From a virus: a stretch of DNA of 21,364 bases. The stretch spans positions 1 to 21,364 of the IMG/VR virus record IMGVR_UViG_3300044678_001569. The stretch is one strand, 5' to 3'. Under the pieces are notes generated by a model. The model saw nothing but the letters and a program-made list of their open reading frames with translations, had not been told where the DNA came from and searched no databases. The translations under genes were made by a program, and so were the position numbers. Every line of letters begins with the position of its first letter. Within the stretch, counting starts at the first letter, position 1. Shown in pieces: positions 1 through 8,163 of this stretch.

Positions 1-44
1 GCCTGCTCAGTCAGTGACTGCGGTTGCGATTCGATAATGTTCAT
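1..44 (-). CDS. Start of an early-operon gene cut by the window edge
   Basis: An ATG at 44-42 overlaps the TGA stop of the HD phosphohydrolase gene (ATGA arrangement) and stays open to the window edge, reading MNIIESQPQSLTEQ. The 4-base stop/start overlap is the same coupling seen at most junctions in this window, so this is probably a real gene. Too little is visible to name a function; in related phages this slot often holds replication or recombination genes, which is inference only. Confidence 0.5.
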   Translation of the reverse strand, partial: MNIIESQPQSLTEQ

Positions 45-535
45 ATCTCTGCTTTCAATTTTTCAAACTGGTAAACAAATTCCGCTGGAGCTGCGTACCA
101 CGCGCAGCAGTAGTTCTCGGAGGCAAATTTTGTTGAGTTCAACTGACCGGCCAAATACTTGTTGAGCGATGCAAACTCCTGAGCACCGTGCAGGATGTCA
201 GCGGTGTGAACTCGTGTTGTGTCGGTCCATTTCAAGCCGAGTTTTGTTTTCAAAACTGCGTCAGCTTCTTCCTGCTTTTTCCGGGTGAATTCACACTTAA
301 ACTCACGAGGAATTTCACCGCTCAGAATTTCGTGAGCGTCGTGGACCAACGCCCAGATCTGCTCCTGCGGTGACAGGTCTTTGCAGAGATGCCAGACGTG
401 TACCGAGTGCCGCAGCACTGTGCTTTCCGGATGTTGACCACCAAAACGATAAAGCCTCTGGAGACAATCCGCAGTCCATTGCGGATCTGCAATCACACGA
501 TCAGCCCACTGTTCCACGTCGGTTACAAAACCCAT
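41..535 (-). CDS. HD-domain phosphohydrolase (YfbR-like nucleotidase type)
   Basis: 164 residues, a normal length for small phage HD-domain hydrolases. The metal-binding pattern is visible: H43 in RHSVHVWH, the H65-D66 pair in ALVHDAHE, E69, and a distal D113 in HTADILHGAQE. The GEIPREFK segment after the HD pair matches the usual G(D/E)IP..(L/F)K turn of the YfbR-like family, whose members act on deoxynucleoside monophosphates or related nucleotides. A role in adjusting nucleotide pools during phage replication is inferred. A terminator hairpin lies just upstream (550-576), and a GAGG precedes the ATG (TCGAGGTTTTGCGATG), so this gene begins a partly separate translation unit. It overlaps the next gene by 4 bases. 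Confidence 0.8.
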   Translation of the reverse strand: MGFVTDVEQWADRVIADPQWTADCLQRLYRFGGQHPESTVLRHSVHVWHLCKDLSPQEQIWALVHDAHEILSGEIPREFKCEFTRKKQEEADAVLKTKLGLKWTDTTRVHTADILHGAQEFASLNKYLAGQLNSTKFASENYCCAWYAAPAEFVYQFEKLKAEI

Positions 536-549
536 CGCAAAACCTCGAT

Positions 550-576
550 AAAAACAGCCCGGCCATCGACCGGGCT
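550..576 (-). terminator. Intrinsic terminator between the DUF669 and HD genes
   Basis: On the minus strand there is a perfect 7-bp stem (AGCCCGG at 556-562 pairing with CCGGGCT at 570-576), a 7-base loop, then G and five T (554-550). It lies 20 bases after the DUF669 stop and 15 bases before the HD start. It is within the early operon, so it may be partial or need antitermination. Confidence 0.75.
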
Positions 577-595
577 TCGTGCGAAAAACAACAGA

Positions 596-1075
596 CTACC
601 AAGGCGATTTTGCTGGCGCGGCTTCTGGCTCGAATGCCTGCTCTACGAGATTTTGGGCTGGCTGTTGCGTGGCGGTTTGCTGTAGCAAACGAGCCTTGTA
701 GCCTTTGATCTCGTTCCGAGGATTGCCGTTTTGATCCTTGCCCACTGCCACCTTGATCATCAGCGGTTTGTTGTGCAGCTCCTCGCTCACCTTTGGGTCA
801 GGAACGTTGACAGCAACGCACACAGCCTTCAGTTGTGACCGCCCAATCTGTTCCGCCTGCTGCGATTTGTTCTTGACGTTCAAACCGTCGAACAGAGTTC
901 GGTTTTGATACTTACCGGAAAGAATCTGCAGCGTCAGATTCAACCGCTGTCCGCTGCCGTCCTTTGTCGGCTTCATTTCTGACTTCGTGATGACGGCCGG
1001 ATACTCACCCGGCTCAATCACCTGAAAGTCATTCGCCTTAACGTCTTTCAAACCCAGATCACCGAGACTTGCCAT
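596..1075 (-). CDS. DUF669-family protein, probable ssDNA-binding role
   Basis: 159 residues. The N-terminal half has the DUF669 pattern: a start rich in small residues, then VIEPGEYPAVITKSE, then a beta-strand block with LNLTLQILSG and RTLFDGLNV, followed by a helix and LKAVCVAVNV. In phages this family is commonly encoded beside a Sak4-like ATPase and is thought to be a single-strand binding or recombination accessory protein. Here the Sak4-like gene lies immediately upstream (54-base gap). The C-terminal tail is rich in Gln, Ala and Pro and ends in acidic and hydrophobic residues, like the flexible tails of SSB proteins. The ATG has a GGAG 11 bases upstream. Function is family-based inference. 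Confidence 0.7.
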   Translation of the reverse strand: MASLGDLGLKDVKANDFQVIEPGEYPAVITKSEMKPTKDGSGQRLNLTLQILSGKYQNRTLFDGLNVKNKSQQAEQIGRSQLKAVCVAVNVPDPKVSEELHNKPLMIKVAVGKDQNGNPRNEIKGYKARLLQQTATQQPAQNLVEQAFEPEAAPAKSPW

Positions 1076-1129
1076 AACTCACTTCTCCACTCAAAAAGAT
1101 GAAACTCAAACACCACTCACAAACTGTGA

Positions 1130-1855
1130 TCACTTCGGCCAATAGCTCTGATAAGCCGCCCAACTGAATTCAATTTCCGGAGGCATCGCCAGGCGGTTCT
1201 TAGCCCTGACTGCTGCCGTTTCCTGCGTTCGCACGTATCGCTCATTGAGATCAATGGCAACGTTTCGCTCTCGATTGAATCCCTGATCCTCTTTGCGGAC
1301 CGCAACGCGATAAGACGCGAATAACAATTCATCCGTCCATTCAGCCCACATAGCACTTGCCGCATCGTGCATCGCAGGCTGGTAACGGTCGTAACTGTCT
1401 TGGTCTGGGCTCTCAAAACGTTTGACCGCAGCATGAGCGAGCAACACAATTGCCATGTTGCGTTCGCTTCGGCAGTGCTCCAAAGCCAGCATGACCTTGT
1501 CCCAATATCGCAAAGCCTGCTTGTAACCAGCTCCGTAGCCGATGTCCGCAATGGAATCCTTTCCGGCCGCTGTTGCCACCTCGTGATGAATCAGCGATTC
1601 CAGCCAGTCCATCGAGTCAATCACCACAGTGAAAAACTCATGCTTCTGCGTTCCGATCCACAACAGCGCTTCCATCACCTGACCAAACGTTGTCAGATGC
1701 GGAGTTCGCTGGCAGTCGATGTTGTTGAGTCCATCTTCAAGGTTGACAATCACAGCACCGGGAGCACCCGCCGCCCATGTGCTTTTTCCGATGCCATGCG
1801 TGCCGTACAGCATGCACTTTCTTGGAGCCTTTGTTTTTCCGCTCAGTATCTTCAT
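1130..1855 (-). CDS. Sak4-like RecA-fold ATPase (AAA_24 type)
   Basis: 241 residues, typical for phage nucleotide-binding proteins of the Sak4/AAA_24 group. The Walker A motif is GTHGIGKST (residues 18-26). The Walker B strand is FFTVVIDSMD (74-83) with D80 as the likely Mg-coordinating Asp, and AIVLLAHA further on fits the sensor strand. Sak4 proteins are RecA-like single-strand annealing or recombination proteins that work with a partner SSB; the DUF669 gene just downstream is the expected partner. The ATG overlaps the DUF1064 stop by 4 bases (ATGA), which implies coupled translation. A plain recombination ATPase or a RecA paralogue are alternatives. Confidence 0.8.
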   Translation of the reverse strand: MKILSGKTKAPRKCMLYGTHGIGKSTWAAGAPGAVIVNLEDGLNNIDCQRTPHLTTFGQVMEALLWIGTQKHEFFTVVIDSMDWLESLIHHEVATAAGKDSIADIGYGAGYKQALRYWDKVMLALEHCRSERNMAIVLLAHAAVKRFESPDQDSYDRYQPAMHDAASAMWAEWTDELLFASYRVAVRKEDQGFNRERNVAIDLNERYVRTQETAAVRAKNRLAMPPEIEFSWAAYQSYWPK

Positions 1856-2193
1856 TTCTTCCTCTTCTTCTTCCTCAAACCCGTTTCCAAAATCACCACA
1901 CCAAACACTGCTTCCATCAATTTTTTCTTCAGGTTGTAGACGGGCGTTTTCATGCCTTTCACGTCTTCAACAACCTCTTTGCCGTTCTCGATGTAAACGA
2001 AGTCCGCGACATATCGGCAAACCTTTTTTCCGTTCACTGTGATCTGATACGGAACCTGCAAACGCAGGTCTGTAATTAGCCCGGCTGACTGAATCACCTT
2101 CAGCACGCCGTACCGTGTTGCTTCTGCTTGTGAGTCAAACGTGATCCCGTCAACGACTGTCTTTTTTGCGCCGTATTTCGATCGTCGCTGCAT
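1852..2193 (-). CDS. DUF1064 phage endonuclease-like protein
   Basis: 113 residues. The N-terminus SKYGAKKTVVDGITFDS followed by QAEATRY is the DUF1064 signature. The core carries D64 (YVADFVY) and E76-D77-x-K79 (VVEDVKG), a PD-(D/E)XK nuclease arrangement with E24 as the extra upstream acid. The C-terminus is strongly basic (LRKKKRKK), consistent with DNA contact. Members are common in phage early regions beside annealing ATPases and are presumed nucleases, perhaps resolving recombination intermediates; no specific substrate can be read here. It lies 9 bases after the CsrA gene and overlaps the Sak4-like gene by 4 bases. Confidence 0.8.
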   Translation of the reverse strand: MQRRSKYGAKKTVVDGITFDSQAEATRYGVLKVIQSAGLITDLRLQVPYQITVNGKKVCRYVADFVYIENGKEVVEDVKGMKTPVYNLKKKLMEAVFGVVILETGLRKKKRKK

Positions 2194-2202
2194 GGCGGTT
2201 GT

Positions 2203-2421
2203 TTACTTTCGCTGCGACTTTGGAACGGTCTTGACTTCACCACGAGCGATACGGTGGAACACTTCCAGCCGATGAACTTTCACTGATGACTCAGCAGTGA
2301 ATCCAAGCCTGGCTTTGTCACCGCGAATCTCACAGGCCATAACGTCAATGACTTGCGGTTCTGGACTAGGCGGAACAATGATGCGAACGACTTCATCCTT
2401 TTCACGAGTCAAAATAAGCAC
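2203..2421 (-). CDS. csrA: CsrA/RsmA-family RNA-binding translational regulator
   Basis: 72 residues. The N-terminus MLILTRE and the C-terminal block RGDKARLGF...VKVHRLEVFHRI are the two conserved RNA-contacting segments of CsrA. R6 and R51 (in VHRLEV) correspond to the two arginines of the classical RNA site. The segment between them has about seven extra residues (VPPSPEP) compared with E. coli CsrA, and the usual GE after the first strand is replaced by DE. CsrA dimers bind ANGGA motifs over ribosome-binding sites and change translation or mRNA stability. The start is GTG with a consensus AAGGAG six bases upstream, so strong translation is expected. A phage copy could redirect host or phage mRNAs; the targets are unknown. 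Confidence 0.9.
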   Translation of the reverse strand: MLILTREKDEVVRIIVPPSPEPQVIDVMACEIRGDKARLGFTAESSVKVHRLEVFHRIARGEVKTVPKSQRK

Positions 2422-2427
2422 AGCAAA

Positions 2428-2433
2428 CTCCTT
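2428..2433 (-). promoter_or_regulatory. Consensus Shine-Dalgarno of the csrA-like gene
   Basis: AAGGAG lies six bases before the GTG start at 2421 and fixes that start. It also contains a GGA preceded by A-rich sequence, the core of a CsrA binding motif, so self-repression of translation is possible but unproven. Confidence 0.7.
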
Positions 2434-2445
2434 TTCGATTAGTTA

Positions 2446-2507
2446 AAAAAAACCTGCGAACAGCCCCGACGTGACTGCTTAAAAACGCCGGACCGCATGA
2501 CTGTCCG
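2446..2507 (-). terminator. Two weak terminator-like elements upstream of csrA
   Basis: On the minus strand a 5-bp stem CGGAC/GTCCG (2503-2507 with 2489-2493) is followed by GCG and five T (2485-2481). A second, very small CTG-TTCG-CAG hairpin is followed by eight T (about 2462-2446). Either could reduce read-through into csrA or act as an attenuator. Both stems are short, so this is tentative. The region 2422-2593 otherwise holds no gene I can support. Confidence 0.3.
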
Positions 2508-2593
2508 CAGGAGTGCAAAAAGAGGCCGCAATTCTTTCGCGACGGGCGCGTAACCGTGATGACTTCAATTCATCGCCTCTGTGATGCGCCGCA

Positions 2594-2677
2594 TCACTTC
2601 CAAAGATTTGCTTCAATGGCCCCGGCTGCAAAAATCCCCGCCAGTACCACGCAAAAAAGAGCAACGCAAAAATCCAT
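2594..2677 (-). CDS. 27-residue single-span membrane peptide
   Basis: ATG at 2677, one base after the stop of the upstream gene, preceded by a perfect AAGGAG with 7-base spacing (2685-2690). This is one of the strongest ribosome-binding sites in the window. The 27-codon product begins MDFCVALFCVVLAGIFAAG and ends IEANLWK, so almost the whole peptide is one membrane segment. It lies in the early operon between an unknown gene and csrA. A longer TTG-started frame (2479-2703) covers the same bases but has no comparable ribosome-binding site and a tail of unlikely composition. Function unknown; membrane-acting small phage proteins are plausible relatives. Confidence 0.5.
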   Translation of the reverse strand: MDFCVALFCVVLAGIFAAGAIEANLWK

Positions 2678-2678
2678 G

Positions 2679-2900
2679 TCAGTGCTCCTTGTGAAAGTCC
2701 CAAGGTTGCAAAGATTCGTCTGGTGACGTTTCACCAACGACTGCGAGTGCCTGTTTCGGAATCACAGGAACGATGCCGCGACGGCTCCACTCGACTGCTT
2801 TGCGGACAAGCTCAATTGGCTGAGACGCAATGTCGTCAGGCATTTCGCTTTCGTTGATTCGCCGCCAGCGAGCTTTGAGCGTTAAAAGTTCTCCGCTCAT
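2679..2900 (-). CDS. Small early protein of unknown function (73 residues)
   Basis: The ATG overlaps the stop of the GIY-YIG gene by 4 bases (ATGA). The product is soluble, with a basic N-terminal helix (LLTLKARWRRI), a middle segment ELVRKAVEWSRRGIVPVIPK, and an acidic end. No family is recognised. Its coding nature is supported by the overlap with its upstream neighbour and by its stop codon sitting between the AAGGAG and the ATG of the membrane peptide downstream. Confidence 0.6.
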   Translation of the reverse strand: MSGELLTLKARWRRINESEMPDDIASQPIELVRKAVEWSRRGIVPVIPKQALAVVGETSPDESLQPWDFHKEH

Positions 2901-3274
2901 CGTGCTGCCTCCAATTCGAGGTCAGCGTGCGAATCTACTGCAGTTGCATTCAGAATCGGAGGTCGGCCGTTAATCTTTGCTCTCATTGAATATGAGCGAA
3001 TAAGGCACGACTCAATTTGATACTCAGATAGCCAATGACCAACGTTAACAGCTGGTTCACACTCAGCCAATTTGACTATTTCAACTCGAATGTCTTTTGC
3101 GAGGCACTCAGATAACCACACGTAAACTGGCCTGTGCATCTCCTGCGATCTTGCAGCTAAGCTGATGTGCTGCTTCAGGCGATGGCTAAGTTCTCCAGTG
3201 GTTATTCCGATATATCTGACATGACCGCCAGATTCTCGAAGACCATAGAACAACGTTTTGCGAGAAAACGCCAT
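2897..3274 (-). CDS. GIY-YIG nuclease superfamily protein
   Basis: 125 residues. The N-terminal block LFYGLRESGGHVRYIGITTG followed by RLKQHI matches the GIY-YIG fold: the first strand (FYGL in place of GIY), the second strand YIG, then the basic helix with the conserved Arg. A later IESCLIR may carry the catalytic Glu helix, although I cannot assign the Glu with certainty. Free-standing members are common in phage early regions and are presumed DNA nucleases. It is the first gene after the repressor-controlled early promoter at 3448-3476, with a leader of about 165 bases. No strong ribosome-binding site is seen. Confidence 0.7.
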   Translation of the reverse strand: MAFSRKTLFYGLRESGGHVRYIGITTGELSHRLKQHISLAARSQEMHRPVYVWLSECLAKDIRVEIVKLAECEPAVNVGHWLSEYQIESCLIRSYSMRAKINGRPPILNATAVDSHADLELEAAR

Positions 3275-3447
3275 ATGTTCACGCTAATCGCCTTCCATGC
3301 GAAAGGCAGATTCCATCTGCGTCACATCTCCGACCACAATCAATGCGCGACGGAAGGACTCGAAAGCCCAGTGACAAAGTCTGATTTAGATAAGACTCAG
3401 CCCCGGTTCGACGCGGTTCCGAATCTCCATAACTCAACACTGCGAGA

Positions 3448-3476
3448 ACAATATTCCAATCGGAATATTCTGTCAA
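3448..3476 (-). promoter_or_regulatory. Predicted early-operon promoter
   Basis: Minus-strand TTGACA (3476-3471), a 17-base spacer, and TATTGT (3453-3448). The -35 matches the sigma-70 consensus fully and the -10 matches four of six positions. The spacer is filled by a palindrome shared with the repressor promoter. It lies 31 bases after the repressor gene and faces the GIY-YIG gene, so it is the best candidate for the lytic early promoter. Confidence 0.7.
3450..3469. promoter_or_regulatory. Operator 1, palindrome within the early promoter
   Basis: AATATTCCAATCGGAATATT is a perfect 8-bp inverted repeat around AATC. It lies between the -35 and the -10 of the early promoter and overlaps the -10, so a bound repressor would block RNA polymerase. 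Read on the minus strand, it shares CCGATTGGAATA exactly with operator 2 read on the plus strand. Confidence 0.7.
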
Positions 3477-3507
3477 CGCCGCATGTTCAGAAATTTTATC
3501 AATTTGT

Positions 3508-3756
3508 TCAAGACGCGCGTCGCTTTGGAAAGTCCATAAGCGCATCGCTAGTAACGCCAAGGGCTTCCGCAACATTACGCAACAGCAGTGCGTTTGGAAG
3601 TATTGCTCCGCACAGAATTTTTGAAACGAATCCTTGGCTAACTGTAGCCGCATTTGCCAAATCAACTTGTGTCATCGCGCGTGCGTCCATCAGTCGCCGA
3701 ACGTTTGCTGCGATATTTTCCTTGGCTTGAATTTCGTCCAACATTTCTGTTTGCAT
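3508..3756 (-). CDS. XRE/Cro-CI-type repressor, HTH domain only
   Basis: 82 residues from ATG 3756. Residues about 18-72 form a complete HTH_3 fold: NVRRLMDARAMTQVDLA, then the turn and recognition helix ATVSQGFVSKIL, then LLLRNVAEALGV. There is no C-terminal dimerisation or self-cleaving peptidase domain, so induction by RecA-stimulated cleavage is unlikely. A frame with a TTG start at 3783 exists, but it would begin inside the -35 to -10 spacer, so ATG 3756 is chosen. A near-consensus promoter ends six bases before this ATG, which implies leaderless mRNA, as for lambda cI made from PRM. Matched palindromes at its own promoter and at the early promoter support a lysogeny repressor role. Confidence 0.85.
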   Translation of the reverse strand: MQTEMLDEIQAKENIAANVRRLMDARAMTQVDLANAATVSQGFVSKILCGAILPNALLLRNVAEALGVTSDALMDFPKRRAS

Positions 3757-3762
3757 CCCGTG

Positions 3763-3790
3763 AGTATACCGATTGGAATACAATTGTCAA
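3763..3790 (-). promoter_or_regulatory. Predicted repressor promoter, probable leaderless transcript
   Basis: Minus-strand TTGACA (3790-3785), a 16-base spacer, and TATACT (3768-3763). Six bases then separate the -10 from the ATG at 3756, so the natural start of transcription falls on or beside the A of ATG. The -35 abuts the T-run of the tRNA terminator just upstream. Confidence 0.75.
3764..3781. promoter_or_regulatory. Operator 2, palindrome within the repressor promoter
   Basis: GTATACCGATTGGAATAC is an imperfect palindrome (7-bp arms with one mismatch around a 4-base centre). It lies between the -35 and the -10 of the repressor's own promoter. It shares a 12-base identical block and the same dyad with operator 1, suggesting autoregulation by one protein. 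Confidence 0.7.
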
Positions 3791-3864
3791 AATAAAAGCC
3801 TGAGTGGTCGAACGCTCAGACTGACCAGACTTTGAATCAATCAGAAAGAGCACACTCAGGCTTT
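3791..3864 (-). terminator. Intrinsic terminator after tRNA-Leu
   Basis: A perfect 12-bp inverted repeat (AAAGCCTGAGTG at 3795-3806 with CACTCAGGCTTT at 3853-3864) starts two bases after the end of the tRNA. On the minus strand the second arm runs into CTTTTATTTTG. The loop is 46 bases, long for a terminator, and contains a smaller self-complementary stretch. It would insulate tRNA transcription from the repressor promoter that begins at its T-run. Confidence 0.65.
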
Positions 3865-3865
3865 A

Positions 3866-3951
3866 TGCGGTCAGTGGGATTCGAACCCACACGGGCCGTT
3901 AAGCCCACTGGCTTCTGAGACCAGCTTGTCTACCAATTTCAACACGACCGC
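3866..3951 (-). tRNA. tRNA-Leu, anticodon CAG
   Basis: 86 bases on the minus strand. The acceptor stem GCGGTCG pairs with TGACCGC. The D arm is TTG/CAA around AAATTGGTAGA. The anticodon arm is CTGGT-CTCAGAA-GCCAG with anticodon CAG, reading CUG. The long variable arm TGGGCTTAACGGCCCG is typical of class II tRNAs (Leu, Ser, Tyr). The T arm is GTGGG-TTCGAAT-CCCAC and the discriminator is A, as expected for Leu. CCA is not encoded (TAA follows). All arms pair well, so the gene looks functional. It lies between the integrase and the repressor, in the expected attachment region. It could be phage cargo or an att-linked copy. Confidence 0.93.
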
Positions 3952-4154
3952 TTTTCCCAATGTTTTCACAACTTTCGCGCCATTTCCTGAAGGGACCGCG
4001 ACGGACTACCAACGGGGTGGCTCGCGCTAGCTTTCATCAATTTTTTTGAAACGTTCGCAATTAATGTGATGAACGTTTTTTCGCCGAAATATAGGGTGAC
4101 TCACCGCAGCCCCTCTTCGCCAGTGAATGGAGTCACGTCACTGGATAAACCACG
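3952..4154. other. tRNA-integrase intergenic region with several inverted repeats
   Basis: No gene is seen. An 8-bp repeat AAACGTTC (4049-4056) / GAACGTTT (4071-4078) is followed by more T on the plus strand. Two interlocked 7-bp repeats follow: GTGACTC (4096-4102) / GAGTCAC (4130-4136), and CCAGTGA (4120-4126) / TCACTGG (4138-4144), the last ending 10 bases before the integrase ATG. In a lambda-like map this is where attP and the integrase and excisionase arm sites lie, so these are candidate recombinase or regulator sites. No attachment core can be identified without the host sequence. Confidence 0.45.
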
Positions 4155-5021
4155 ATGCACATAGTTGACCACGCGCGGGAATACTGTGCCCGCAAACAGA
4201 TCGCGAAAACACCCATCTACGCTTGCCAGCGAGTCGCTGAAGTGATTGGCGAAATCGAAGCCAGCCAAGTGACTCAGGACCACGTCGAGCAGTACGTTGA
4301 GCAGGCCCGCCGCGATAAAGTCCCGGAATGGACCATTAAAGGCGCTGTCAAGGACCTGCGAACAATTGTGATTGACGCCGGCGGTCCAGCACTTTCCAAT
4401 CCAGTGCGAAAACCGAAGCCCGATCCTAAGCCCTGCGAAATTGCCGACCTTGATCTGATCTGGCAATGGCTCGCACCATGGTCCTGCCAATTGATTGTGC
4501 TGACCTATTGGTGCGGAATTCGTTTAGAAGACGCAATACGGCTGCAACTGAAGGTAGATCCAGCTTGGCGGTCAATTACGTGGGACGCCAACAAAACCGG
4601 CCACCGTCATCGAATTCCAGTTCCGCCATGGCTCCGAAAATGGCTGGCGCCCGTGCGACTGCCGTACTTGAAAAGCAACGACCATGCCCAAACGATTGTC
4701 CGAGGAGAACTGGATCGAGTTTGCCAGATTGCAAAAGTGCCCCGGATTCTGCCCAGCCAGATACGAGATCGGGGAATCACCGAATGGTCGAAGGTATCTT
4801 CTGACGCCGGTGCCTTGCTGCATGGTCACGGACTTGGAACGCGAGACCATTACGTCCCGGCTCTTGAAATCTTGACGGCCGCAATGGACCGGGTAAGGGT
4901 TCCGGCCGCGTTTGGGGCTGCTCAGTCGTCAGAAGACAGCCTTCTGTCGGCCTATCGCCGTCTTGACCCGTCTGCTCAGGGACTGGTCAGCATGACTGCG
5001 GAACGGCTCGCGGCGGGGTGA
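4155..5021 (+). CDS. int: Tyrosine recombinase, phage integrase
   Basis: 288 residues, shorter than lambda Int. The helical N-terminal part (about 1-90) looks like a SAM-like core-binding domain, with no obvious arm-binding domain before it. The catalytic part has R123 in YWCGIRLEDAIRL, K147 in WDANKTGHRHRIPVP, R204 in PSQIRDRGITEW, a His in LLHGHGLGTRDHYV (H223 or H225) and Y233 as the probable nucleophile. The usual first His of the HxxR box appears to be Ser (SQIR). It is the only gene on the plus strand and converges on the late operon, with a terminator at its end. It would integrate and excise the phage; the attachment site is probably in the region just upstream. Confidence 0.88.
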   Translation: MHIVDHAREYCARKQIAKTPIYACQRVAEVIGEIEASQVTQDHVEQYVEQARRDKVPEWTIKGAVKDLRTIVIDAGGPALSNPVRKPKPDPKPCEIADLDLIWQWLAPWSCQLIVLTYWCGIRLEDAIRLQLKVDPAWRSITWDANKTGHRHRIPVPPWLRKWLAPVRLPYLKSNDHAQTIVRGELDRVCQIAKVPRILPSQIRDRGITEWSKVSSDAGALLHGHGLGTRDHYVPALEILTAAMDRVRVPAAFGAAQSSEDSLLSAYRRLDPSAQGLVSMTAERLAAG

Positions 5022-5073
5022 AACGCAGCGACCCTCAACCGATCGGCTGAGGGCCTTGCCAGACTGCGTTTTT
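5021..5073 (+). terminator. Terminator between integrase and the end of the late operon
   Basis: Nested hairpins: an inner CCCTCA (5032-5037) / TGAGGG (5048-5053) containing CCGATCGG, and an outer AAACGCAG (5021-5028) / CTGCGTTT (5064-5071). T continues to 5073 on the plus strand. It begins at the last base of the integrase stop and fits rho-independent termination of integrase mRNA. The inner stem could also stop late mRNA coming from the right. Confidence 0.65.
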
Positions 5074-5085
5074 GAGTCGCGTTAT

Positions 5086-6801
5086 TTATCCACTCGACTC
5101 CGGGCCGTAACTATGCGTCATCATGTTTCTATAAACTTCTGAGGCCTCGCGCCCGACCCACTTTTTAAGCGTCTGCAGGTTCACGTCTCTGACCGCATTT
5201 CGCGATGGTTTCCACCCTCGTGATTGTCGCCCTTCAACGCCCTTCATGCCAACGCACAGTGATTGCGTGCCGTCCGCGTCGCGCCACGTAAACGTGCTGC
5301 CTTTCCATGCTCGCCACAACCGCAAGTCAACGGAAGGATGCCAGCCCTGTGCACATCGCTCCAGCGTTCCGAGCACTGCCCGAGTCATGCCTGTCCTGCA
5401 CAGGCTCGCGTGATGCTCCGACTGGTGGTTGTGCCGAAACGACCTGTGCCGCAGGTAGTAGTATTTTGCACCAAACTCGCCAACGAGATCCGCCCGCTGA
5501 AGTCGACCGACCATCGTAGACAGGTAGTGCGGTGCGTAATAGTCGTCATCCTCGACAACAAAAATGCACTCACCTTCAATGTGCGGGATCGCGGCTCGAA
5601 GATTGCGACAAAGCGAATGGTGAGGCATTGGACGTTGTCGAATGTAGTGTTGCCCCATCGTGCAGGTTGTTGGCTCGACACCATCGTCGACCACGATCCA
5701 CTGAATCTGACCCGTGTAAGTCTGTCGACTCATCCATCGCTCGCACAGAGCAAACGCTTCCGGCCTGTCTCCGGTCGGGGTGATTACTGTCACCCGTGGC
5801 GGATTCCACCAGTCCTGTGACCAGTCCTTCGCAACTCGATTGCGGGTCAGTTTTCTGTCTGCGTAAATCGCTGCCGTGTCGCCGGTGTGTTGCACAAGAG
5901 ACGGATTGTGAGTGAGGACAGGTATGTCTTGCTCAGCACATGCCCGGTGAATGAGTTGATCAACACAATCTGCTTTTGGCCATTTTGCCCATTGCGCCGT
6001 CTGCGTAATGGTTTGCAGCGTCGACCGCCGCATGAGCAATGCCAACGAACCAATGAGCGGCTGCCGGATCTTTGCCCACTTGTCGATACTTTGCTGCCGC
6101 GTTCCAGACGTGTAAAGCGAAAGCACCTCGTTTGTCAGGTTAAACTGCCTAAGATAGTCAGCAGTGTGAGACGATACGGCAATATCGTCCTCGCAAAGTA
6201 AAAACCATTCCGCTTCCGTGGTTGCCAGCAGATCGAGGCACATTGCCTTAAATGATCCAATCGGCCCTTTTTTTGTCGTCCAAACAACGTCACCTGCCAC
6301 GCCCGCATCTGGCTCGCAATATGTTTTGACGTTGCGAAATCCGGCTGTTTGCAGACTGGCAATCGTTTCTTGCCATCTGGCAGTGATCCGTTTGGCAATT
6401 CTTACAGCGGGCTGAATCGTTGTGACGAACTTTAGCGGGTACGATAGCGGCTGGCTGACCGGTGCAGGTTTGGGAACGATTGAATTGATAAGGTCAGACA
6501 CCATTGCGATCCGCTCCGGTGTCTTCATTCGATCTGGCCACGAGATTTCAGCAGCCAGCTTTTTTGCAATCGCATCGTGATCATGCGTGGTAATTTGATT
6601 CAGCGATTGCAAATATGCCAAACATGTTCCACAGGTTACTTTAATGCCCGCTGATGATTCGATTGCAGCTTTGATCTGGTCGCCAACTGTTGAAACGTTT
6701 TCGGCCACCGTCGCATTCACAAACGCAACGACCGCACCGCTTGCCTGCAGTTTGTGGCGAATAACGCCGGCCTCTGTTACTCGCTTGCGAATCGTTACCA
6801 T
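5086..6801 (-). CDS. Tandem glycosyltransferase (two GT-A-like domains)
   Basis: 571 residues from ATG 6801. The open frame extends to 7335, but that part lies over the upstream tail gene in another frame and is rejected. The ATG overlaps the stop of the 44-residue membrane peptide (ATGGTAA). Residues 1-110 form a helical domain with C57 and C60. Residues about 123-310 look like a first transferase domain with an EDD motif (204-206) after WFLLC. Residues about 335-540 look like a second, GT2-like domain: RVTVITPTGDRPE, IVVDDG (369-374), and EDDDYY (417-422) as the metal-binding acidic motif. Both acidic motifs are intact. It closes the late operon. Glycosylation of the virion or of the host surface is inferred; the sugar and acceptor are unknown. 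Confidence 0.75.
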   Translation of the reverse strand: MVTIRKRVTEAGVIRHKLQASGAVVAFVNATVAENVSTVGDQIKAAIESSAGIKVTCGTCLAYLQSLNQITTHDHDAIAKKLAAEISWPDRMKTPERIAMVSDLINSIVPKPAPVSQPLSYPLKFVTTIQPAVRIAKRITARWQETIASLQTAGFRNVKTYCEPDAGVAGDVVWTTKKGPIGSFKAMCLDLLATTEAEWFLLCEDDIAVSSHTADYLRQFNLTNEVLSLYTSGTRQQSIDKWAKIRQPLIGSLALLMRRSTLQTITQTAQWAKWPKADCVDQLIHRACAEQDIPVLTHNPSLVQHTGDTAAIYADRKLTRNRVAKDWSQDWWNPPRVTVITPTGDRPEAFALCERWMSRQTYTGQIQWIVVDDGVEPTTCTMGQHYIRQRPMPHHSLCRNLRAAIPHIEGECIFVVEDDDYYAPHYLSTMVGRLQRADLVGEFGAKYYYLRHRSFRHNHQSEHHASLCRTGMTRAVLGTLERCAQGWHPSVDLRLWRAWKGSTFTWRDADGTQSLCVGMKGVEGRQSRGWKPSRNAVRDVNLQTLKKWVGREASEVYRNMMTHSYGPESSG

Positions 6802-6929
6802 TGCTGTGGATAGTGGTGTTGAAATTCGTATGTGTTGAACCACGCTCCTGCCGCCGATGATGACAGCACAGCGACAACCGCAATGATTGCGACCATCAAC
6901 GGCCACTGGCACAAACGAATTACAAGCAT
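6795..6929 (-). CDS. 44-residue single-span membrane protein
   Basis: ATG at 6929 lies 10 bases inside the end of the upstream tail gene. Its TAA (6797-6795) overlaps the glycosyltransferase ATG, giving ATGGTAA. The frame therefore exactly bridges its neighbours, which supports a real gene. The product has a short N-terminus (MLVIRLCQWP), one hydrophobic segment MVAIIAVVAVLSSSAAGAWF, and a polar, His-rich end (HHYPQQW). A small holin-like or tail-assembly membrane protein is conceivable, but no endolysin is nearby and nothing shows the function. There is no strong ribosome-binding site, so it probably relies on coupling. Confidence 0.6.
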   Translation of the reverse strand: MLVIRLCQWPLMVAIIAVVAVLSSSAAGAWFNTYEFQHHYPQQW

Positions 6930-7543
6930 GGATTAGGCCCGTCTGAAAAGGGACACTCGCCAACCAACACGCCATTTCCGCCCGTGCTCGTAGGGCCGCT
7001 GGCGCTCCAGAATAAAAAGTCGTAAACGCCACGCCCGGCAGGCACGTCCAGAAAACGAATCCACGATAATCGCGTCTGACACGGGGGGGCCGCTTCTGAC
7101 CGCCCGCAGCACAGCTCGTAATCGTAGTGGATAGTGTGTGACAGCATATCGTCGCTGTACATGATAAAATAATACTCACACGGACGCACGATTTCATCAT
7201 CAACGTACGGGGATAATCCCGAAGGATTTGACGCGCGACGCACCAACACGCCCGGCAGTGACAACGGATCCAGCCCGCACGGAATAGTGATATTGAATCC
7301 GTCCCAATTGACGGGAATTGCGGTGTCCTCTCCAATGACCCACTTTTCTTGCCCGCTTGTGATTGTGTACGGGACAGACCCAGAAACGACCGCGCCTGCG
7401 CAAGTGTCGCCCGGAATGGTTGTCGATTTCAATGTGCCTTTAAGGCATGTCAGCGGTTCGGAAAACTCACAATCGCAAGGGGCGTTTGGGCATCCACCGC
7501 AGCAGCATTTAAGATAATCCGGTTGCCCGAACAATCCAGCCAT
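6920..7543 (-). CDS. Cys-rich distal tail-region protein, unknown function
   Basis: 207 residues from ATG 7543, which overlaps the previous stop as TAATG; a start nine codons earlier (7570) is possible but less likely. The N-terminus has a dense cysteine cluster (CCCGGCPNAPCDC) after MAGLFGQPDYLK, and further Cys pairs occur at ELCCGR and along the chain. The rest is beta-rich (GSVPYTITSGQ, FNITIPCG, RLSWIRFLDV). The cluster suggests bound metal or disulfides. It belongs to a set of three consecutive distal genes after the tape measure, where baseplate or fibre proteins normally lie, so a tail-tip role is inferred. No family is recognised. Confidence 0.7.
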   Translation of the reverse strand: MAGLFGQPDYLKCCCGGCPNAPCDCEFSEPLTCLKGTLKSTTIPGDTCAGAVVSGSVPYTITSGQEKWVIGEDTAIPVNWDGFNITIPCGLDPLSLPGVLVRRASNPSGLSPYVDDEIVRPCEYYFIMYSDDMLSHTIHYDYELCCGRSEAAPPCQTRLSWIRFLDVPAGRGVYDFLFWSASGPTSTGGNGVLVGECPFSDGPNPCL

Positions 7544-8163
7544 TACGACCCGCTCCCAGATGCAGGGCATTCACCGCATATAATTTCGTCGCACTCCTTG
7601 CCGACAAAGATGATTGGAGTTTTCCCGATGAGCACTGGCGGCCCATCTGGAGCACAGCAATCCCATCGTTCGCGATATTGCACGATATGCTCTTGGTAGC
7701 CTCGCACGATTCTCCACGGCGTTACGCCAGCCGCCGCTGTACCGCTGACTTTAGCCACGACGCAATCGGTTCCCAGCAATAGCGGAATCGTGACTGACTG
7801 CGGGTCGTAGGCGAGGACATAGGTGCCATTTCCGATGACCTTTATCGGAGGTGGGCTCAAAGTCAATTCGCAGCCGGACGCACTAGCGCTTCCGCTTGCA
7901 TCGCCTGCACATGGATTGCAATCTTCTTCGCCGGATCCTGACGCGACGCTTTCTTCAATTGTGCCGAGTTCGACTGTGTACAACCCGCATGAATGTACGG
8001 TGTGTATTTTCCCGTCGCGAACCGATCCACCACCGCTGATTTCTTTTTGCTGCCATCGCCCGCGATGCGGCTGTTCATTCATCATCCTGCGAGAGACTTC
8101 ACGCGCAATCTGCTTGTACTCGCCGTACCCTGCTTCGTTAAAGCCAATCGCAACGTCAGTCAT
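7543..8163 (-). CDS. Distal tail-region protein with Ser-Gly-Ala linker, unknown function
   Basis: 206 residues. The N-terminal part (about 1-70) is followed by a low-complexity Ser/Gly/Ala linker (VASGSGEEDCNPCAGDASGS), then a beta-rich part (PIKVIGNGTYVLAYDP) and a Cys-containing end (WDCCAPDG, ICGECPASGSGS). The protein ends in the same Gly-Ser repeat found in the upstream gene product. It starts with a 4-base overlap at 8163 and ends with TAATG at 7543. Its position after the tape measure suggests a distal tail or fibre component. This is inference; no domain is recognised. Confidence 0.7.
   Translation of the reverse strand: MTDVAIGFNEAGYGEYKQIAREVSRRMMNEQPHRGRWQQKEISGGGSVRDGKIHTVHSCGLYTVELGTIEESVASGSGEEDCNPCAGDASGSASASGCELTLSPPPIKVIGNGTYVLAYDPQSVTIPLLLGTDCVVAKVSGTAAAGVTPWRIVRGYQEHIVQYRERWDCCAPDGPPVLIGKTPIIFVGKECDEIICGECPASGSGS

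Follow-up and report, generated by a model that had tools for sequence, protein, structure and literature searches.

A candidate two-layer lysogeny switch, with a protein repressor and an antisense RNA, in a group of uncultured phages

The putative repressor gene and its matched operators

The window analyzed here (W) is the whole of the linear IMG/VR virus record IMGVR_UViG_3300044678_001569, which is 21,364 nt long. The minus strand of W carries, in this order, a tRNA-Leu(CAG), a hairpin with a U-rich tail, a promoter, an HTH gene, a second promoter, a leader of ~170 nt, and the early genes. In a consensus scan, the repressor promoter (TTGACA-16-TATACT; positions 3763 to 3790) matches at 11 of 12 positions and the early promoter (TTGACA-17-TATTGT; 3448 to 3476) at 10 of 12, so that the two same-strand promoters of the original prediction are present exactly as they had been written. 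Based on its sequence, we assign 3790 to 3763 to a probable sigma-70-like promoter, and an equivalent promoter is found in 11 phages. The gene for the putative repressor (3508 to 3756, with its ATG at 3756) lies on the minus strand between the two promoters, both of which face left, as had been proposed. The early-operon leader (3275 to 3447, minus strand) runs from the early promoter to the first early gene.

Each promoter overlaps a palindrome, and the two palindromes share CCGATTGGAATA and are found at the positions given previously. Operator 1 (GTATTCCAATCGGTATAC; 3764 to 3781, minus strand) has 7 of 9 pairs, and operator 2 (AATATTCCGATTGGAATATT; 3450 to 3469, minus strand) has perfect 8-bp arms. 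They had been described as lying between the -35 and -10 boxes; they are indeed located in the promoters, but both extend beyond the spacer and overlap the -10 box. The 15-mer ATACCGATTGGAATA, when up to 2 mismatches are allowed, occurs only at the two operator places in the whole record, while its reversed control occurs at 0 places, and the likeness of the two sites was reached in 0 of 300 shuffles of one region. A looser, more degenerate operator pattern gave 10 occurrences where 5.4 were expected, which is no enrichment, and a palindrome search of viral contigs returned 55 stretches, the known relative L034 among them. The two promoters are the best two promoter-like sites in positions 1 to 8000, although the number of such sites there (7, compared with 4.8 [standard deviation, 2.2] in shuffles) is not in excess, and the case therefore rests on comparison between phages.

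The product of the gene is 82 residues long and has Pfam matches above the cutoff to HTH_3 (8.1e-06) and HTH_31 (1.1e-06) and to nothing else, which agrees with the earlier description of a protein of this size without a self-cleavage domain. Its PHROG matches are repressor families, and its single match among solved structures is a chain named DBP48 (E value of 0.0018). The predicted repressor transcription start in W coincides with the ATG of the gene itself, with the -10 box ending 6 nt before it. This gap is 6 to 8 nt in 11 of 11 phages (the -10 boxes were picked visually, and those of L004, L097, and L102 are weak). Transcription would then begin on the start codon or immediately beside it, and the regulator mRNA is therefore predicted to be leaderless.

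Relatives were collected as seven contigs via the integrase, two via the leader pattern, and two with this layout via a ParB-methylase profile, and the final set comprises 11 distinct phages including W; L006 was left out because it is a near copy of L005. The query that yielded L102 and L104 also yielded L101 and L105, in which the cassette is absent. Among the 11 phages, seven types of small HTH regulator occupy the one slot. The regulator of W is kept only in L003/L008 (76% identity), and this sole phage also keeps both palindromes, so that the original prediction survives a refutation that it had itself named, the disappearance of both sites from relatives with the gene. An HTH_17/MerR-like regulator is found in L005, L009, and L010, an HTH_17/MerR-like regulator of another type in L104, a weakly classified HTH regulator in L007 and L096, and other XRE types in L004, L097, and L102.

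Each phage has its own regulator-specific operator pair, before and after the regulator gene (e.g., TTTGTTGTATCAAACAAAT and TTTGTTGTATCCAACAAAT in L097). The true operator pairing in the 11 phages was reached by 0 of 200,000 shuffles. When each regulator type was represented by a single phage, 50 of 200,000 reached it, which is about the rate of the single best of 5,040 orderings. The operator matches of L007 and L009 are individually weak, and the upstream operator of L004, L097, and L102 is not in the spacer but precedes or overlaps the -35 box. The 11-phage comparison strongly supports a co-directional arrangement in which an HTH regulator has matched operators both at its own promoter and at the early promoter. 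The part of the original prediction that made this a lysogeny switch is less direct, as the lysogeny role is read from the position of the gene beside the attP and integrase, the predicted leaderless start, and the placement of the operators. On this basis, the 82-residue HTH protein is probably the lysogeny repressor, and no other repressor-like gene was recognized among the early proteins scanned in the window.

A predicted hairpin RNA complementary to the early leader

Directly upstream of the regulator promoter, all 11 phages have a predicted hairpin RNA of the same layout. In W, this predicted antisense RNA (3791 to 3864, minus strand; fold of -31.4 kcal/mol) consists of an outer stem, an inner hairpin, and a U-rich tail. 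The RNA adjoins tRNA-Leu/attP in the phages where those are present, and a scan of positions 1 to 8000 listed no promoter for it upstream on the same strand near the tRNA. Rfam recognized no family other than tRNA, and its C4 model was without a match at E 1 (five sources) and at E 10 (positions 3270 to 3870).

Side-by-side reading of the sequences located the complement of the inner loop in the early leader, with the regulator gene in between. Folding and a collinear-block search gave a second contact, in which the junction after the inner hairpin complements a leader hairpin loop. On the minus strand of W, site A in the inner hairpin loop (CAAAGTCTG; 3826 to 3834) is the 9-nt complement of site A' in the leader (CAGACTTTG; 3375 to 3383), and site B at the 3' junction of the RNA (GTTCGAC; 3807 to 3813) is the 7-nt complement of site B' (GTCGAAC; 3406 to 3412). 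The contacts are in antisense-consistent order, and the spacing from B' to A' is 19 to 23 nt in all phages. Next to site A' is the closing stem (GTCAC/GTGAC) of a branched leader domain (3321 to 3375, minus strand). This conserved domain was seen by eye and in folds, and its pattern is common to 8 of 9 related records. Site B' is held in a terminator-like leader hairpin in L007, L096, L097, and L102.

The two sides of each contact vary together. At site B, L005 has GTCTCAC/GTGAGAC and L009 has TTCTCAC/GTGAGAA, which differ in one compensatory pair. Site A is GCAAGTC/GACTTGC in L010, ACAAGTC/GACTTGT in L004, and GACAAGATC/GATCTTGTC in L097. Integrase arm-type sites were considered as a cause of the repeated AAGTC/GACTT and are disfavored, as in the stretch read the hairpins of L097, L102, and L104 have neither a tRNA half nor this integrase beside them.

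The contact sites were initially picked by eye and tested afterwards, with L009 trimmed to its homologous interior for the complementarity analysis. For nine phages, 3 of 200,000 shuffles did as well as the true RNA-leader pairing. For six nonredundant types, 283 of 200,000 did so, as would be expected for the single best of 720 orderings. In the 11 phages, the observed sum of RNA-leader complementarity was reached by 0 of 200,000 shuffles and, with untrimmed leaders, by 0 of 100,000 permutations, although these are not independent trials because the phages are related. A permutation of site B only supports that contact separately. There was no signal when direct identity was counted instead of the complement or when the start of the regulator coding sequence was the target in place of the leader. 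Two phages fetched after the model had been formed also fit it: L102 has contacts of 11 nt (site A, where the sequence differs greatly) and 6 nt (site B), and L104 has contacts of 8 and 7 nt, respectively.

In the RNA, the contact sites have unpaired fractions of 0.67 and 0.71, compared with an average of 0.33. In the leader, the value is 0.81 for B' and 0.47 for A', compared with 0.38, so that A' is barely more open than average. The predicted gain from joint folding is -8.6 kcal/mol for cognate pairs and -3.7 kcal/mol for noncognate pairs. For W alone, the gain is just -3.8 kcal/mol, and another place on the minus strand equals the complementarity score of the leader, so the match in W is not unique and W is not persuasive by itself. 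Across the comparison, 11 of 11 phages have two collinear candidate contacts complementary to their own early message.

The genes that follow the leader were also inspected. In W, the first early gene (2897 to 3274, minus strand) has a weak match to the GIY-YIG nucleases that is below the cutoff (Pfam E value of 0.019), and no relatives of this gene were found. Several phages have a homing-nuclease-like first gene after the leader (GIY-YIG-like for W and L005 and HNH-like for L008 and L096, the assignments in L005, L008, and L096 being made by eye), and in other phages this gene resembles that of a ParB-like methylase. In the phage of L008, the leader domain recurs after an HNH gene, at positions 1960 to 2080 of L098, and CAGACTTTG of this second copy also complements that phage's own RNA loop. 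This arrangement would fit an insertion of the HNH gene, together with a new leader, ahead of the original one. W also encodes a CsrA-like protein at 2203 to 2421 (Pfam CsrA, 5.5e-11), and the leader hairpin GCAGATGGAATCTGC carries GGA in its loop. Control of the leader by CsrA via GGA motifs was rejected, as GGA counts are not above those of shuffles except in L104. The leader pattern has seven matches in bacterial genomes, four of them apparently in one protein-coding gene and none with the cassette, and we take these to be chance.

The integrase, the tRNA, and the putative attP

A 288-residue integrase (4155 to 5021, plus strand; PHROG integrase E value of 1.7e-08) faces away from the switch, and relatives that are 74 to 90% identical are present in seven viral contigs. 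Its profile found 0 relatives in bacterial genomes and the protein 0 matches among INPHARED phages, and therefore no host was identified. Beyond it, 5086 to 7335 on the minus strand is a 749-aa open reading frame with a match to glycosyltransferase family 2 (E value of 7.4e-07). The tRNA-Leu with anticodon CAG (3866 to 3951, minus strand; ARAGORN; Rfam RF00005, 52.9 bits) is directly upstream of the hairpin RNA. A putative attP core, TTCAGGA (3985 to 3992, minus strand), matches the anticodon loop of a tRNA-Leu(CAG), was placed at these coordinates by exact match, and is invariant in an alignment of seven relatives. W, L008, and L010 have this core together with a complete tRNA-Leu(CAG), and L004, L005, L007, L009, and L096 have only the 3' half of a tRNA at the attP, just upstream of the RNA. 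In the stretch read, L097, L102, and L104 have neither a tRNA half nor this integrase beside the hairpin.

In mycobacteriophages, tRNA-dependent lysogeny involves a short attP core and a complete phage tRNA of the same isotype, and in integration-dependent immunity the attP is beside the immunity region (PMC10865867, PMC4557955). W likewise has a putative short core, a full tRNA, and a putative attP beside the proposed immunity region; unlike in integration-dependent immunity, the putative attP of W is outside the repressor gene. The phages with a full tRNA and short core and those with only the 3' half look like the pair of tRNA-dependent and tRNA-restoring attP types known in mycobacteriophages (PMC10865867). 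A possible but doubtful extension is that immunity is coupled to integration: the RNA, which lies directly after the tRNA 3' end, would have no phage promoter and would be switched on only when integration brings a host tRNA-Leu promoter in front of it. Integration could put such a promoter before the RNA because the attP with the tRNA 3' half adjoins it upstream, but L097, L102, and L104, which lack the tRNA-half arrangement, weigh against coupling as a general rule. If true, the RNA would report that the phage has integrated.

A proposed two-layer switch and its alternatives

We propose that this region is a two-layer lysogeny switch made up of a protein repressor and an antisense RNA, a reading to which we give a probability of about 0.7 from the sequence comparisons above. 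In the first layer, the 82-residue HTH protein, made from an mRNA predicted to be leaderless, would bind both matched operators. Binding to operator 1 in its own promoter would give autoregulation, and binding to operator 2, in the early promoter downstream on the same strand, would give repression. In a lysogen, the protein would be expected to keep both promoters down, although its own promoter must fire at times. The early leader starts 24 to 63 nt after the regulator stop codon, and since no terminator is apparent between the regulator and the early operon, read-through into the early operon is expected. The original prediction raised this problem. A likely solution that it missed is the predicted antisense-type RNA, joined in four relatives by a terminator-like leader hairpin.

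In the second layer, the hairpin RNA would pair by its loop (A) and 3' junction (B) with A' and B' of the leader. Early expression, including that from repressor transcripts that read through, would thereby be blocked, and an incoming phage's message could also be silenced in trans. The block may act on translation or through premature termination. The terminator-like B' hairpin in the four relatives hints at attenuation as in P4, and the position of A' beside the closing stem of the branched domain would fit refolding or a block of translation.

These data can also be read as a switch that is operated by the protein only, with the hairpin only terminating the tRNA or upstream unit, so as to shield the repressor promoter, and with complementarity that is incidental or reflects inverted DNA sites of a protein. 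The hairpin does have the form of a terminator in W and its relatives, the leader match is not unique in W alone, and the DNA sites of a changing protein would likewise vary in step. However, the permutations and the out-of-sample results with L102 and L104 argue against this reading, as do two separate contacts in antisense order, at constant spacing and mostly in unpaired parts. Moreover, L005, L009, and L010 have the same regulator but differ at the contacts, and therefore the regulator is not a protein that recognizes them. We consider this explanation unlikely. Pairing in cis, as a long-range fold of a single transcript that spans the tRNA, the repressor gene, and the early leader, is very improbable: both elements are on the same strand ~400 nt apart, but the upstream element precedes the repressor promoter and ends in a terminator-like hairpin, and transcripts from either recognized promoter therefore lack it.

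A further explanation concerns the first layer only, and we think it possible, though doubtful: the HTH protein may be an early regulator of the Cro-like or controller type, acting to limit its own operon, with the true repressor outside an incomplete record. The W record is 21 kb, compared with up to 38 kb for its relatives; the protein has 82 residues and no cleavage or oligomerization domain; and controller proteins of restriction-modification systems share the leaderless start and the promoter palindromes (PMC4824078). Against this, the gene is beside the attP and integrase in W and in the integrase relatives, and the scanned early proteins of W include no other recognizable repressor.

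The proposed two-layer switch has partial parallels in known systems. The c4 RNA presents its two contacts in loops. In phages P1 and P7, c4 is a small antisense RNA that matches the early message and sets immunity specificity (PMC12197685). The predicted W RNA is similar in being a small phage RNA with two candidate contacts to the early message, but c4 comes from the same operon as its target and controls an antirepressor, whereas the W RNA is separated from its target by a protein repressor gene that has a promoter of its own, has the early leader as its predicted target, and does not match the Rfam C4 model. The antisense CI RNA of P4 has two complementary targets in its own phage and causes premature termination in lysogens (PMC4825925). 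The W RNA is likewise complementary to its own phage at two sequences; unlike W, where a proposed protein switch is also present and the predicted RNA gene is upstream of it, P4 has CI RNA as its main immunity factor, processed from the leader. Lambda cI is an autoregulated HTH repressor with a leaderless mRNA (PMC3017554), and the putative W repressor resembles it in its HTH domain, predicted leaderless start, and operator in its own promoter. In lambda, however, the promoters diverge and CI carries a cleavable dimer domain, whereas those of W are co-directional and its protein is HTH only. C proteins such as that of Esp1396I are small HTH proteins with a leaderless gene and palindromes in their own promoter and that of another gene (PMC4824078), a pattern that W shares. 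Unlike for these proteins, no restriction enzyme and methyltransferase pair was recognized beside the W gene, whose neighbors are weak GIY-YIG, CsrA, DUF1064, Sak4-like, and SSB-like genes. A literature search that covered few subscription journals found nothing closer to the combination than c4 and P4 CI. Antisense RNA immunity is already known from these two systems, and what appears to be new here is a protein repressor together with an antisense RNA.

If this reading is right, one compact cassette of RNA, repressor, and early leader carries two exchangeable specificities, and, as the protein-operator and RNA-RNA specificities vary separately, immunity groups would be readable from sequence. 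Two-contact antisense immunity of the P1/P7 and P4 kind would gain an uncultured phage group, the handling of read-through in a co-directional switch would be explained, and immunity might be linked to integration at a tRNA gene.
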